Assembly (NCBI GenBank): GCA_016927695.1
Contig: JAFGME010000237.1
Coordinates: 1 to 42,796 of the forward strand
Direction of reading: 5' to 3'
Length of the DNA: 42,796 nucleotides
Source: Bacteroidales bacterium
GTDB lineage: Bacteria; Bacteroidota; Bacteroidia; Bacteroidales; JAFGHD01
Each line of letters opens with the position of its first letter. Positions within the stretch are counted from its first letter, which is position 1. The notes beneath the pieces are model-generated. The model ran no database searches, was not told the DNA's origin, and saw only the letters and a list, made by a program, of their open reading frames with translations. The position numbers and the translations under genes are program-made. Positions 1-19,735 of this stretch are shown here, one piece after another.

Positions 1-59
1 ACCAGTCAATCCCCCAAACAGGGTATTTTTGGGTAGTTTGATGTTTGAAGTTTGGAATT

Positions 60-420
60 CGAAGTTGAGGAAAAGGTGTGTTTTATCACCTAAATGGGGG
101 AGGAAAACTGTTCTCGGTTCTCAGTTCACAGTTTTTTCAATTCAACCTTACGGGAAAAGTTCAAGGTTGTTTTAAGTTTCTGGTTTCATGTGTCAGGTTT
201 GGTAGTCAGCATAATGATTTCAGGATGTTCTTTGTTCTGAATTCAGTTCTCGGTTTAAAGTTCACAGTTTGAGTTCTCTCTTCACAGTTTACAGTTATTT
301 TCTTTCTAAACCGGAATACAGAAAAGATAAAATAGCTCAGAAAACAGATAACAGCCAACAGAGAACAGAGAACAGAGAGAACAGAAATCAGTCAACTGAT
401 TACTGAGAACTGTCAAAAGC
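60..420. repeat. Degenerate AGTTC/GAAC-rich low-complexity region
   Basis: No convincing gene lies in the first 426 bases. The segment is built from imperfect repeats of a short unit: TTCACAGTTT occurs near 123, 259 and 281, variants of GTTCTCGGTTCTCAG near 110 and 248, and the complementary sense (AACAGAGAACAGAGAACAG) fills 352-385. The left part is therefore T-rich and the right part A/G-rich, so the halves could pair imperfectly. Such decayed repeats are common between Bacteroidota genes. Function is unknown. Confidence 0.55.
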
Positions 421-14776: not shown

Positions 14777-17700
14777 TTATTTGATGATCACCTTCTTGTC
14801 AACCCAACCCTTTTCGGTTTCCAGTTTCAGGTAATATACACCTGTCTGGAATGTGCCGGTGTTGATCTGATACCTGACATCGTTTACATCGTCTTTTTCA
14901 TAAACGATCTGTCCCTGACTGTTGATCACGATGATGCGCGACATGGGCAGGTCAGACTGGATATTCACGAGGTCTGTTGCCGGGTTCGGGTAAACCACAA
15001 TGCTGGAGACGGTAATTTCGTTAACAGCATCAATAAGATCAACTTCAATTACATTGGATGCTGGTGATTCACCATTGGTATAAACTGCAGTAACATAATA
15101 ACTGTACACCCCATAGTCAGGAGCAACATCTTCAAACTCCGGAACTGTTGGCTGTCCAACAACCTCATACGAACCTGAAGGCAGGTTTTTCCTGTATACA
15201 TTATAATTTTCAAAAACAAGCGTTGCTTTATATGCACTGCCGGGGGTAAAGTTAGGTGTGATCCTGTTGTTGATCGTTCCGGGGTTTTCGATGATCTCCA
15301 TGGTATTTACCATAGGTTGGGCCGGAGCGCCTTCTGCAACAGCGCTAACCATAGCCTCGATAGCCCAGTTGTAGCTGAGGCCATAGGCTATCGACATACT
15401 TTCCCAGGCTGTACCATTCATGGATAACATATCCCCCTTATTGGCAATGGCCGGGCCTAAGTCGGTTCCTGCCGGGTGTGTACCTGTGCCATGGGTCACT
15501 TTATAACCAAACCAGAGTTCGGCGGAAGCGTCAATCTGAACAGGCGTAGTGAGCGTCACTTCGTTGAATCCGCCCGGGGTGCCGCCTGTGACAGTTTGCA
15601 TGAGCAACTGTGTTCCTGCGTTGGGGCCTTTCCAGACATATATCTCGAAAGTAGCTTCCGGGGCATCGTCATTCCACCAGAAATTGATTTTCTTGAGGAA
15701 CTGTCCGCCGTACGGTGTAAGGTCTGCCGGGAGCCAGTGCGAAGCAATATAGAAGGATCCGGCAGCCGTCAGACCTATTCCGTTTCCACCAGCTGATGTC
15801 GGATCGAACCAGCCGATCCATTCGCCGCTTGCATTAGGCTCGTCCCAGAACAACGGTACTGTCAAGCCAGTGCCGGGATAAGTTTCATAAAGATTGGAAG
15901 GAGGCAGACAGAGCTCCGTGGTCACGGTGACACAGACAGATTGTGATTCACCTTCGTCGTAAACTGCAGTTACACAATATTCGTGCTGTCCGGGGGTCAC
16001 ATTGTTATCGGTATAGGATGTAGTGGCCGGTGAAGCAAGCAGGGTGCCGTCACGGTAAACCTTGTAGTTGTTCAGGTCGTCGCCTGCATCGCTGGAAGCC
16101 CAGCCGATGAAACCTGCCATGATGTCGGCCAGGTCAGCGGGGTCAACCACTGCTGCCAGTGAGATGGTAGTGAATATCGATTTAAAGTTGCTGCCTTCAT
16201 ACTGGCATGCTGCAATACCGGCAGGTGTAGGATTGGTTACCTGGAAGAGATCGTCGCCCAGATGGGTGATCTGGTCGATATAAAGGCCTTCCTTGGCTAC
16301 GGAATAGATATCCTGCATCTGGAATGATATCCCTGCTGCACATGAACCTGCTGCGCCATTTGCACTGCCTGGAGTGGTTTCGATAATCCAGAGATCCTGT
16401 GACACGGAAGTAAGTCCTAAGTAGTCACGCGGGAACTGACCGGCATTGAAGTTACCTGCACTCGGGTATTTGTCATACAGGTAATCCTGGCCCGACAATA
16501 TCAGCGATCCGCCGCCATTGAGGTAGGCTGCAAGATTGGCTTCATCGCCGCTGCCCATGGTCTGACCGCTCTGCCATCCTTCACCTGTGAACCAGATCAC
16601 AATGTCATAATCCTGAAGTGTGGTGAGAGGGGGTCCATTCTGGGTAAGATCTGTTACTTCGTGATAGTCGTAAGCATAACCATTGGCATCCAGCGCTGCT
16701 TTAATGGCAGTCCAGTCATCCGTATAGCCGGTAATGCTCGAACTACCGTCACGGTCAACGCAGAGGATGGTTCCGGGGCCTGCGCCGGGTGCGTCCCATT
16801 CCAGATTTACTGTGGTGCACTGTACTTCTGCCGTAAGGTTCGCCGGAGGCGTAACGGCATCTAAGCATGCATTGGCAGTGGTGGTCTGGCCGCCGTTCAC
16901 GACAACACCTGCCACCTGTCCGTCAAAGTAGCCACTGGCTACAATATCCAAGGTATAGGTTCCCGGGGGAACATTGCCGATGGTGTATGAGCCGTTGGCT
17001 GCAGTTGTGCCGGTATAATTACCCGGGGTTGTGGTAACAACAGCGCCCTGTATTCCGGCTCCACCGGTACAATTGGTAATTGTACCTGCAATGGTTCCGA
17101 CAGAAGGCGTCATCTGGAAGTTATAGGTAACGGTTTGCTGACAAACAACTGTGATGCCGGGCACTGTGAGCGGCTCAAACCCGGCTGCCGTAACATTGGC
17201 TGTGTAAGTGCCTGCTGCAATATCCAAAGTATATGCGCCGCCGGCAACTGTTGTCGTCTGAACCGAACCAATCTGTACGGTGGCCCCAACAATGGGTGCA
17301 CCCGAGGTAGAGCTGGTGACAACACCTTCCACCGTTCCGATGGGATCGGGAGTGAGTGAGAAGTTCTGTATCGTGGGAGCTCCCTGAACAATGGTCACCG
17401 AAACAGTCTGTGGAGTAAAACAGGGCGCCGATGCTGTGGCATCCCATGTTCCTGTGGGGGCAACGAGTGTGTATGAGCCGCCGCCCACAGTCTGAGTTGA
17501 AAAACCTGCCACTTCAACTGTAGCGCCAACGATACCCAGACCCGTATTGGCATTAAGCACAACCCCGGTGAGGGTTCCGCTTGTGTAAAGCGGGAAATTT
17601 AACAGATCGTTAATATAATTTCCTTCGTACAGGGGAGGAACACCGTATTTGGTTTCCATCGGGTGCCACTGGTCAACATAATACTGTCCGCCGTTCATCA

Positions 17701-19735
17701 GGCCAATTGTTCCAACAGAAGGTACAAAGGCAACACCGGCATTGTTGATATTGTCGCTGATTTTAATCTTGAACCTCATGAATCCCTGCCAGTCTGTGGT
17801 AACTTCATTCATGAAGTTCGGATCAGCAATAACAAAATTGGCTTCAAACACAATGGCAAACCTGGATGGGGTATTGTCGGTAGCATTGACAATGGCATAC
17901 TTGTCGGTTCCGGTAACATCCCCCTGCAACAATTGCAGTCTTTCGTAGGTAATTTTATTGTTTGCCTTAATACTCTGCCCAAAGGCATCGGTATTATAAT
18001 CAAAGTAAATCTGAGTGCTGGAGTGATATGTACCCGGTATGGAGCATTTTAACTGAACGTCAAAAACGAGGGAGTCATTCACTACATCATAATTGGCAAA
18101 CTGCCAGCTCAGTACAGGTAATGGCGGTACGAGAGGATAAAGTTCAATGTCCTGCTGTGTGGTTTGTCCGCAGGTCACCACCACTCCGGTTACTGTGTTG
18201 GTATTGTAATCGGGATGGGTTGCCGTTACATCGTAGGTTCCTTCATCCACGTTGTCCAATGAATAGAATCCACTGGCATTGGTGGTTGCGCTGAATGTTC
18301 CGAAGGTCACACTGGCATTTTCAATACCCAGTTGGGTTACTTCGTCCAGCACATAACCTTCGAGTGTACCCAGGGCCTGGGGATCAAGGGCAAAGTCAAC
18401 GGTAATAGTACCGCCCATTGGAACAACCACGCCAGGTTGCGTTGCCGGGGCATAGCAAAGGATGGTAGCGGACACATCGTAGGTTCCGGCAGGTAAATCA
18501 AATGAGTAGGTGCCGTCGGCCAGGGTCAGTGTGGAATAAGCGCCTGCCTGGATAAGCACATTCTCAATCGGGTTGTTAGTGGAGAGATCGGTCACGGTGC
18601 CGTCAATGGTACCAATGCTTGAAGTCGGAACCATGGTTACGTCAACCGTTGTGGTGGCGTTGCACACGATCATAACCCCGTTTACTGAAGCGTCCAGATA
18701 GTCAGGGTGTGTGAAATCGATGTCATAGGTTCCGGGCACAACATCCACGATCTGGTAGAAGCCTGTGGCGTTGGTGGTTGTAGAGTATGCACCCATGGTA
18801 ACGGTAGCGCCGTCGATGGGTAACAGGGTAATGGCATCGGTGACCGTACCTTCAACTATACCGAACTCTGAGCCGGTAAGCGCAAAATCCAGTGTGGTGG
18901 TGTTCCCTGCCGTAACCACAACGCCATTATGGGTGTAAGGATCGTGACAGTCTGCCGTGGCAGTAACATCATAGGTGCCGGCGTTAACCTGCAGCGTGTA
19001 AGTTCCGTCGGCAGCAGTGGTGGTTGAATAGGTACCTGTGGATACCGAAGCATTAGCTATTCCAAGCCCGGACACGAAATCGGTAACCGTTCCCGAAATG
19101 TTACCGGGCTGGATAAAAGCCCACGTCAGCAGGTCATTTTCATAAATACCCGCATAATCGGGAGGATTACCGTATTTTGTTTCGTTGGGATGAGTGGCAT
19201 CCACATAATACTGCCCGCCGTTCATCAATCCGACACCTCCGTCCTCATCGACAAATTCAATACCGGCAAGTTCGTTCATGTCGCTGATGGCGATAGTGTA
19301 CCTCATGTAGCCTTGCCAGTCGGTGGTGACCTCGTTCATAAACATAGAGTTGGCCACCGTAAATTGCGCTTCAATGATAATGGCAAAACGGTAGGGTTTG
19401 TTGTTTGCCGCATTCACTACATTGTATTTGGGGCTCCCAGCCACATCCCCGTTAAGTAATGCCAGTTTTTCCCACCTGATCTTGCGGTCGGCATAGGTGG
19501 GTGGCGTGCCTGCAATGTTTTCGCCAAAGGCAGCCGTGTTAAAGTTAAAATAAACCTGGGTACTGCTGTGGAATGTGCCAGGCATGTCACATTTTAATTC
19601 CACATCGAAACGGGCCGAGTCGCCCGGAATAACCTGTGCATTAGCAAAACGCCAGGATAAAACAGGGTTCTGCGCCATAGCGCCAAATGCCATAAACGCG
19701 AAAACCGCTAAAAACAGTAACTTTACGTTCTTCAT
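14777..19735 (-). CDS. Giant multidomain T9SS surface protein
   Basis: A 1652-residue secreted protein. Signal peptide 1-21 (ends AMA-QNP). Residues about 22-210 and 540-720 are two copies of a beta-rich module (VLSWRFANAQV/VLSWQFANYDV, then FHSSTQVYFNF/YHSSTQIYFDY and FMNEVTTDWQG). Each is followed by carboxypeptidase-like regulatory domains, four (about 210-538) and three (about 718-960), with repeating GTVTD...GTYDVTATADC patterns. Residues about 960-1275 are an FN3-like domain split by a roughly 230-residue insert with a Rossmann/GATase-like look (TILCVDRDG, DIVIWFTGEGW, GGGSLILSGQDYLYD). Residues about 1278-1565 are a second FN3-like fold, split by a beta-rich insert (KINFWWNDDAPEATFEIYVW). 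Residues about 1570-1652 are a T9SS type A sorting domain (VVYPNPATDLVNIQSD to WVDKKVIIK). It is probably an adhesin or surface scaffold; catalytic activity is unproven. It is transcribed alone, divergent from the XRE regulator. Confidence 0.9.
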   Translation of the reverse strand: MKNVKLLFLAVFAFMAFGAMAQNPVLSWRFANAQVIPGDSARFDVELKCDMPGTFHSSTQVYFNFNTAAFGENIAGTPPTYADRKIRWEKLALLNGDVAGSPKYNVVNAANNKPYRFAIIIEAQFTVANSMFMNEVTTDWQGYMRYTIAISDMNELAGIEFVDEDGGVGLMNGGQYYVDATHPNETKYGNPPDYAGIYENDLLTWAFIQPGNISGTVTDFVSGLGIANASVSTGTYSTTTAADGTYTLQVNAGTYDVTATADCHDPYTHNGVVVTAGNTTTLDFALTGSEFGIVEGTVTDAITLLPIDGATVTMGAYSTTTNATGFYQIVDVVPGTYDIDFTHPDYLDASVNGVMIVCNATTTVDVTMVPTSSIGTIDGTVTDLSTNNPIENVLIQAGAYSTLTLADGTYSFDLPAGTYDVSATILCYAPATQPGVVVPMGGTITVDFALDPQALGTLEGYVLDEVTQLGIENASVTFGTFSATTNASGFYSLDNVDEGTYDVTATHPDYNTNTVTGVVVTCGQTTQQDIELYPLVPPLPVLSWQFANYDVVNDSLVFDVQLKCSIPGTYHSSTQIYFDYNTDAFGQSIKANNKITYERLQLLQGDVTGTDKYAIVNATDNTPSRFAIVFEANFVIADPNFMNEVTTDWQGFMRFKIKISDNINNAGVAFVPSVGTIGLMNGGQYYVDQWHPMETKYGVPPLYEGNYINDLLNFPLYTSGTLTGVVLNANTGLGIVGATVEVAGFSTQTVGGGSYTLVAPTGTWDATASAPCFTPQTVSVTIVQGAPTIQNFSLTPDPIGTVEGVVTSSTSGAPIVGATVQIGSVQTTTVAGGAYTLDIAAGTYTANVTAAGFEPLTVPGITVVCQQTVTYNFQMTPSVGTIAGTITNCTGGAGIQGAVVTTTPGNYTGTTAANGSYTIGNVPPGTYTLDIVASGYFDGQVAGVVVNGGQTTTANACLDAVTPPANLTAEVQCTTVNLEWDAPGAGPGTILCVDRDGSSSITGYTDDWTAIKAALDANGYAYDYHEVTDLTQNGPPLTTLQDYDIVIWFTGEGWQSGQTMGSGDEANLAAYLNGGGSLILSGQDYLYDKYPSAGNFNAGQFPRDYLGLTSVSQDLWIIETTPGSANGAAGSCAAGISFQMQDIYSVAKEGLYIDQITHLGDDLFQVTNPTPAGIAACQYEGSNFKSIFTTISLAAVVDPADLADIMAGFIGWASSDAGDDLNNYKVYRDGTLLASPATTSYTDNNVTPGQHEYCVTAVYDEGESQSVCVTVTTELCLPPSNLYETYPGTGLTVPLFWDEPNASGEWIGWFDPTSAGGNGIGLTAAGSFYIASHWLPADLTPYGGQFLKKINFWWNDDAPEATFEIYVWKGPNAGTQLLMQTVTGGTPGGFNEVTLTTPVQIDASAELWFGYKVTHGTGTHPAGTDLGPAIANKGDMLSMNGTAWESMSIAYGLSYNWAIEAMVSAVAEGAPAQPMVNTMEIIENPGTINNRITPNFTPGSAYKATLVFENYNVYRKNLPSGSYEVVGQPTVPEFEDVAPDYGVYSYYVTAVYTNGESPASNVIEVDLIDAVNEITVSSIVVYPNPATDLVNIQSDLPMSRIIVINSQGQIVYEKDDVNDVRYQINTGTFQTGVYYLKLETEKGWVDKKVIIK

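Follow-up and report, generated by a model that had tools for sequence, protein, structure and literature searches.

FN3 domains of a giant type IX-secreted Bacteroidales protein are split at the same loop by different, probably exchangeable, guest domains

FN3 domains on a secreted rod very probably serve as sockets for exchangeable guest domains; this is the explanation that best accounts for our observations on a 1652-residue protein encoded in the window (the whole 42,796-nucleotide stretch of Bacteroidales DNA analyzed here). In our computations, two FN3 folds of this protein are each split by an independent guest, sites of the same kind occur both empty and occupied, and guests have been exchanged in place in two cases, one in a syntenic orthologue and the other among paralogues in a different genome.

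RESULTS

Layout of the protein

The gene consists of one open frame (Table 1). By eye, the protein starts with a signal-peptide-like stretch, and its C-terminal sorting tail scores above the cutoffs of both PF18962 (Por_Secre_tail; E 2.6e-12, 47.3 bits versus a cutoff of 27) and TIGR04183 (37.1 bits versus 23). PF13620 matches seven stretches across the protein (E 1.4e-89). The N-terminal beta module, neither copy of which is covered by a Pfam family, occurs twice here and defines a host protein family. Among the 393 genomes of the order, 17 have matches to the N-terminal host part (E ≤ 1e-20) and 146 to the tail of the window protein.

Table 1. Features of the gene and its product, in window coordinates
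Feature	Residues	Window positions	Strand	Basis
Whole gene; secreted multidomain protein with type IX sorting tail	1652 aa	14777..19735	-	ORF and Pfam/TIGR profiles
N-terminal beta module, copy 1	24-210	19106..19666	-	By eye and landmark positions
Carboxypeptidase regulatory-like repeats, first block	211-535	18131..19105	-	Pfam PF13620
N-terminal beta module, copy 2	540-717	17585..18118	-	By eye and landmark positions
Carboxypeptidase regulatory-like repeats, second block	718-956	16868..17584	-	Pfam
FN3-1 N-terminal half, strands A and B	963-983	16787..16849	-	N-half profile score 30.0; model strands 9-16 and 19-25
Guest 1, GATase/ThuA/GIFT-like alpha/beta domain, in BC loop	989-1214	16094..16771	-	Fold comparison
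FN3-1 C-terminal half, strands C to G	1222-1274	15914..16072	-	C-half profile E 6.1e-23; model; FN3 2w1n
FN3-2 N-terminal half, strands A and B	1278-1300	15836..15904	-	N-half profile score 17.6; model strands 11-15 and 23-29
Guest 2, lectin-like jelly roll related to DUF4082, in BC loop	1302-1468	15332..15832	-	4ci7_B; PF13313 below cutoff
Connector from guest 2 to strand C, low confidence	1469-1508	15212..15331	-	pLDDT <50, model 196-236
FN3-2 C-terminal half, strands C to G	1509-1567	15035..15211	-	C-half profile E 2.8e-12; FN3 3uto_A
Type IX secretion C-terminal sorting domain	1581-1651	14783..14995	-	PF18962, TIGR04183

Two FN3 folds are interrupted at the same loop

The original prediction was that two FN3-like folds in this protein are broken at the same point, in both cases after the LxWDxP strand. 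Sequence landmarks, structural models and a census of similar breaks all bear this out, and both breaks start within a few residues of that strand. FN3-1 is marked by PPANLTAE at 963, LEWDAP at 978-983, NNYKVYRD at 1222 and CVTVTTE at 1268, and FN3-2 by PPSNLYET at 1278, LFWDEP at 1295-1300, ENYNVYR at 1509 and NVIEVDL at 1561. The insert sizes, predicted to be about 230 and 200 residues, came to 240 and 210, respectively, as measured by the census script. We take the interrupted loop to be that between strands B and C (BC loop), with strand letters assigned after the general FN3 fold. Pfam fn3 (PF00041) covers residues 963-990 alone and remains below its cutoff (E 0.0056, 17.3 bits versus 25), and a fragment of the RGI_lyase beta domain matches residues 1209-1265 (E 0.00029). 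That PF00041 does not reach its cutoff as one domain is expected because the domain is split; by fold, it is recognizable as FN3.

The two units were modeled separately using AlphaFold, since a combined alignment had placed FN3-2 rows onto FN3-1. The model of unit 1 (residues 957-1284; 14 sequences) has a mean pLDDT of 89.4 and a pTM of 0.74; in it, two strands (9-16 and 19-25) precede an alpha/beta domain (34-258), which is followed by five strands (265-317). The FN3 domain of 2w1n, the sole FN3 among the 50 matches listed, aligns with it over 84 residues within model positions 1..318 (Z 13.9); because the C-half alone accounts for only ~60 residues, both halves of FN3-1 must lie within this match. 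The model of unit 2 (residues 1270-1575; 8 sequences) is weak (mean pLDDT 63.8, pTM 0.52), with pLDDT values below 50 at 153-187 and 196-236, i.e., in the guest region and the connector. Nearly all of the 50 fold matches listed for this unit are FN3 domains aligned across the guest over ~89-104 residues, including alignments of 92-98 residues within model 5..299 (rmsd 1.7-2.5, Z ~13) such as that of 3uto_A (Z 13.8, rmsd 1.7, 92 aligned residues). In both models, the two halves are predicted to form a seven-stranded FN3 sandwich together, and each unit is predicted to consist of an Ig-like domain into which an independently folding domain is inserted. Modeling, which had been proposed as the check on the original prediction, yielded two FN3 folds that are intact and whose inserts are domains of their own.

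A census of FN3 sites separates empty from occupied loops

The half profiles, seeded with 33 C-half and 53 N-half sequences (some of the N-half seeds were of poor quality), were used in a census of 12 genomes, which comprised all of G000 (the window genome) and G001 (22 C-half matches) and, for ten genomes beyond the genus, stretches around most C-halves. The ten were picked for matching the tail of the window protein, which favors guests. Among 179 C-halves scoring at least 15, 117 were paired with an N-half, and the 62 lacking a recognized N-half were left unclassified. Gap lengths at the 117 paired sites fell into two groups, with 57 empty sites (6-30 residues, 51 of them at 6-15) and 60 occupied sites (121-400 residues); across the 12 genomes, no paired site had a gap of 31-120 residues. 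As controls for mispairing, we took the best N-half score within 45 residues ahead of the C-half, which was 10.8-37.0 for empty sites but did not exceed 3.6 for occupied ones; at the latter, the best C-half score within 80 residues past the N-half did not exceed 5.0. Because 60 of the 117 paired sites are broken alike and the gaps are cleanly bimodal, the two breaks in the window protein are beyond chance.

These data also bear on whether the halves belong to one domain at all. Conceivably, the beta hairpin could end one domain and an incomplete FN3 could follow the insert, and the weak Pfam fragments, which are all that Pfam returns here, and the low confidence of the unit 2 model would fit such an arrangement. 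However, the fold matches to FN3, with 84 and 92-98 residues aligned, extend over both halves, the FN3 is continuous at the empty sites (57 of 117 pairs), and the window genome itself encodes a paralogue with empty sites. We therefore consider separate halves hardly credible and treat each pair of halves as one FN3 fold.

A scan of the remaining FN3 loops yielded no guest: the chain was continuous in 181 C-halves, and none of 8 partial matches had a domain-sized break on inspection. At locus L232, however, inspection by eye suggests that an FN3 of a different type hosts a Cleaved_Adhesin domain in its C-C' loop, and the BC loop may therefore not be the sole possible insertion place.

Guest 1 has a GATase/ThuA/GIFT-like fold

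The first insert had been described as a Rossmann/GATase-type domain, and fold comparison supports this, placing guest 1 in the GATase/ThuA/GIFT-like fold (Z 15-18). Matches included 5xb7_B (GH42 middle domain, Z 18.3), 3rht_A (GATase1-like, Z 16.3), 1t0b_A (ThuA, Z 15.9), 5fmr_C (IFT52, Z 15.1) and 7d54_A (Z 14.4). No Pfam family scored over its cutoff for guest 1, and sequence comparison with the PDB gave only lysozyme-like and designed-protein matches, to which we attach no weight. The same domain is found free-standing, as a signal peptide, the guest and a sorting tail, in proteins of ~345-357 residues (L046, L047, L050, L053 and L054), and the boundaries of guest 1 match those of these secreted copies. 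It also occurs in a different Ig-like host on four contigs of one Cloacimonadota genome (L096, L097, L098 and L104); relatives were present in records named Bacteroidales, Cloacimonadota and Chlorobiota.

Given the GATase-like fold, guest 1 could be a secreted enzyme, an amidotransferase or hydrolase, for which the FN3 insertion is a mere tether. In agreement with this possibility, D994, D996, E1052, S1081 and D1084 are invariant in 14/14 rows of the guest 1 alignment. Ser1081 takes the place where an amidotransferase would have Cys, at a probable sharp turn after the sheet (the elbow position was assigned by inspection), and from the strand order the invariant acids and Ser1081 probably lie at the usual active-site edge. 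However, the 14 rows contain no invariant Cys or His, i.e., no candidate for a catalytic Cys-His pair, and the nearest folds include the GH42 and IFT52 domains, which are non-catalytic. A working amidotransferase is unlikely because the usual Cys elbow is absent, and overall we regard an enzymatic guest 1 as the less plausible alternative to a guest presented by its FN3 host.

Guest 2 is a lectin-like jelly roll

The second insert, predicted to be a beta-rich domain of a different kind, is indeed beta-rich and by fold comparison a lectin-like jelly roll, its match being the lectin-like domain of Cwp84 (4ci7_B; Z 12.6, 147 aligned residues, model 32..197). DUF4082 (PF13313) matches guest 2 with an E value of 1e-5 and 26.0 bits, below the cutoff of 28.4, and reaches 30.0 bits, above that cutoff, for the guest of a same-genus orthologue. 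Approximately 40 poorly predicted residues (~1469-1508) join guest 2 to strand C.

An orthologue carries another guest at FN3-1

The genomes compared included one same-genus relative of the window genome. It encodes an orthologue of 1650 residues that lies between the same neighbors, in the same order and orientation, and is 60% identical to the window protein over 999 residues and 50% over 437. In this orthologue, an unrelated jelly roll stands in place of residues ~984-1221 of the window protein, where identity drops to 5-30% before recovering at strand C. The window FN3-1 halves are 62% identical to those of the orthologue and 32-51% identical to those of six other hosts compared. Guest 1 has no match in the sister genome at E ≤ 0.001; its nearest relative among those compared is a guest in another family, from G331 (63% identity), and it is 52% identical to the copy within the window genome. 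For the jelly roll in the orthologue, the closest relatives come from two window-genome proteins in which this domain is not nested (69% and 66% identity).

Occupancy also varies within the host family. FN3-1 is empty in four other members, but a homologue in G114 (C524), truncated by the contig end, has the GATase guest at site 1. Both FN3 sites are empty in the paralogue in the window genome (G000 C128), while site 1 is empty and site 2 contains guest 2 in the second gene of G001 C141, in G001 C89 and in G114 C254. One further member, G001 C64, is without FN3. Neither a near-identical donor of the guests among the loci compared nor a distinctive GC content was detected (0.504 in the window gene before the guest, 0.519 in guest 1 and 0.539 in guest 2). 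The longest DNA word shared by the FN3 halves compared is 15 bases, and no present-day recombination tract is therefore visible for the window gene.

Paralogues in one genome differ in their guest

Three giant paralogues of 2358, 2150 and 2453 aa (L219, L220 and L221) are encoded on a single 562-kb contig (C15) of G216. Up to one FN3 site, their identity is 76% (1170 residues) or 72% (1455 residues), and past that site it is 90% (637 residues) or 92% (504 residues). At the site itself, one paralogue has a guest of 282 residues that is propeller-like by the look of its sequence, and the other two have lectin-like guests of 220 residues that are 94% alike. DNA similarity ends ~15 bases past the N-half and resumes ~24 bases ahead of the C-half. 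One member of the propeller-like cluster had no Pfam match, and the best relative of the G216 propeller-like guest among the loci compared, at 41%, does not qualify as its donor.

Chimeric metagenome assembly could in principle mimic such exchanges, and the window genome is fragmented (317 contigs) with 5.78% contamination. Against this, the reading frames are uninterrupted, the orthologue retains the gene order on either side, the FN3 halves share no word beyond 15 bases, and all three G216 paralogues lie on one long contig. We consider an assembly artifact very improbable as the source of the guest exchange.

Host and guest are partly inherited together

The 60 guests of the census fall into seven BLAST clusters of 32, 10, 8, 5, 2, 2 and 1 members. 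The nearest host neighbor belonged to the same occupancy class at 65 of the 117 sites, compared to a mean of 37.1 and a maximum of 57 in 500 shuffles; because this agreement exceeds that of shuffled labels, host and guest appear to be partly inherited together. The same excess would be expected if FN3 and guest formed a fixed composite unit that duplicates and moves whole, without any exchange site, and composites do recur (FN3 plus GATase at 47% identity in contig C210 and FN3 plus jelly roll at 42% in C204). However, 52 of the 117 nearest-host neighbors are of another class, the syntenic orthologue and the G216 paralogues differ in the guest but are alike in both host halves and elsewhere in the protein, and guests are also seen free-standing or within another host fold. 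A fixed unit is therefore improbable as the general explanation, and the data favor FN3 sites at which guests can be exchanged.

A second Ig-like host and Cleaved_Adhesin domains

In a supporting scan of the same sequences plus L092-L104, with 2 C-half and 20 N-half seeds and on stretches that had been fetched for FN3, we found 46 C-halves of a HYDIN-like Ig host, one of which matched PF22544 (HYDIN-like) with an E value of 2e-9. Among the 40 that were paired, 36 were occupied (151-293 residues) and 4 were empty (7-20 residues), with none in between. Guests in this host include GEVED (PF20009, E 3.1e-25), propeller-like, GATase-like and guest 2-like domains. Split HYDIN-like loci are seen at L027:2172-6884, L104:3-8906, L025:810-3233 and L023:985-2916.

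Cleaved_Adhesin (PF07675) was present in 44 of 119 genomes and, in 4 of 30 fetched loci (L231, L233, L241 and L254), was located between FN3 N- and C-halves with gaps of 173-234 residues; it had no match in the window genome (E ≤ 0.001) or its sister. In the PDB entry 9isp_A, a fragment of "Protease PrtH," an FN3 C-half is found at the end, after the adhesin domain (E 2.9e-5). This entry suggests that gingipain-type adhesin regions are built on the same plan, and the Cleaved_Adhesin/FN3 loci would be linked to gingipains through it.

DISCUSSION

The idea that the interrupted loop is a modular site is supported by the guest swap in the orthologue, the swap among the G216 paralogues, the empty sites in paralogues and the seven guest clusters. 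We propose that the protein would be a long secreted rod of beta-sandwich domains attached to the cell surface, in which the two FN3 domains near the C-terminus act as sockets, an entire guest that folds on its own taking the place of the B-C loop in each. The guest would project sideways and sit beside the rod, and the FN3 would close around it and hand the chain on. Since entry and exit would use one loop, a guest could be added, lost or exchanged, possibly by recombination, without altering the order of the rod domains. Evolution would have drawn repeatedly on a common set of guests, including lectin-like jelly rolls and GATase/ThuA-like, beta-propeller-like, CBM-like and other domains, some of which may bind ligands. 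By analogy with the split domains of RTX adhesins, presentation of binding domains is the likely role.

We also lean, if only slightly, toward a broader rule for giant secreted proteins of Bacteroidales and neighboring phyla, in which one fixed loop in each of two unrelated Ig-like rod domains (the BC loop of FN3 and a loop of the HYDIN-like Ig domain) may be empty or may hold a guest from a pool, with guests swapped in place and the rod kept. If this is true, surface recognition would be retooled through the exchange of domain cassettes. The naturally empty, occupied and exchanged versions of a fixed loop would provide a test set for the surface display and replacement of binding domains, and an FN3 that tolerates guests of 120-400 residues in its BC loop would be a ready scaffold for protein engineering. 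Annotation tools, here Pfam, split such FN3 domains and miss their guests; because they do so, many secreted Bacteroidales proteins are probably misparsed. The use of split domains as a criterion for finding ligand-binding domains would be extended from RTX adhesins to type IX-secreted proteins.

In a search of mostly open-access literature, we found no earlier report of such an architecture in FN3 proteins secreted by the type IX system. Host-guest domain insertion is a recognized class in the general survey of Schaeffer et al. 2026 (PMC13114784), as far as the available part of that survey goes; by word search, its main text lacks the words fibronectin, FN3, immunoglobulin, adhesin, jelly and Bacteroid. 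PMC11674741 was considered as a precedent and set aside, the FN3 in the available part of that paper being uninterrupted.

Several known systems resemble parts of the window protein. Guest 1 has the fold common to the GH42 middle domain, ThuA and the N-terminal domain of IFT52, yet unlike proteins of the GATase/ThuA/GIFT group, it has neither the Cys-His pair nor a Pfam family over cutoff, and it is secreted. Guest 2 would share its fold with DUF4082 and the lectin-like domain of Cwp84, with the window copy scoring below the DUF4082 cutoff. The haemagglutinins/gingipains of Bacteroidales resemble the window protein in that some loci have a PF07675 adhesin between FN3 halves, whereas the window guests belong to other families.

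Companion split domains of RTX adhesins, which are reportedly also the subject of Graham et al. 2024, share with the window protein an Ig-like host split by an independent guest. In the available parts of Sherik et al. 2024 (PMC10865825) and Ye et al. 2025 (PMC12077191), an Ig-like domain of these adhesins is split by an entire ligand-binding domain that projects away from the rod axis, the guests include carbohydrate-binding modules, and the proteins are type I-secreted and come from Aeromonas, Vibrio and Marinomonas. Compared with the adhesins as portrayed there, the window protein comes from Bacteroidales, has a type IX tail (PF18962 and TIGR04183) and does not belong to the type I/RTX class; its host is an FN3 split at the BC loop, with many empty sites among its relatives and with exchange both in an orthologue and among recent paralogues. 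What our analysis adds to the split-domain plan is the FN3 host, its two-state occupancy, a pool of guests common to two hosts and exchange in place.
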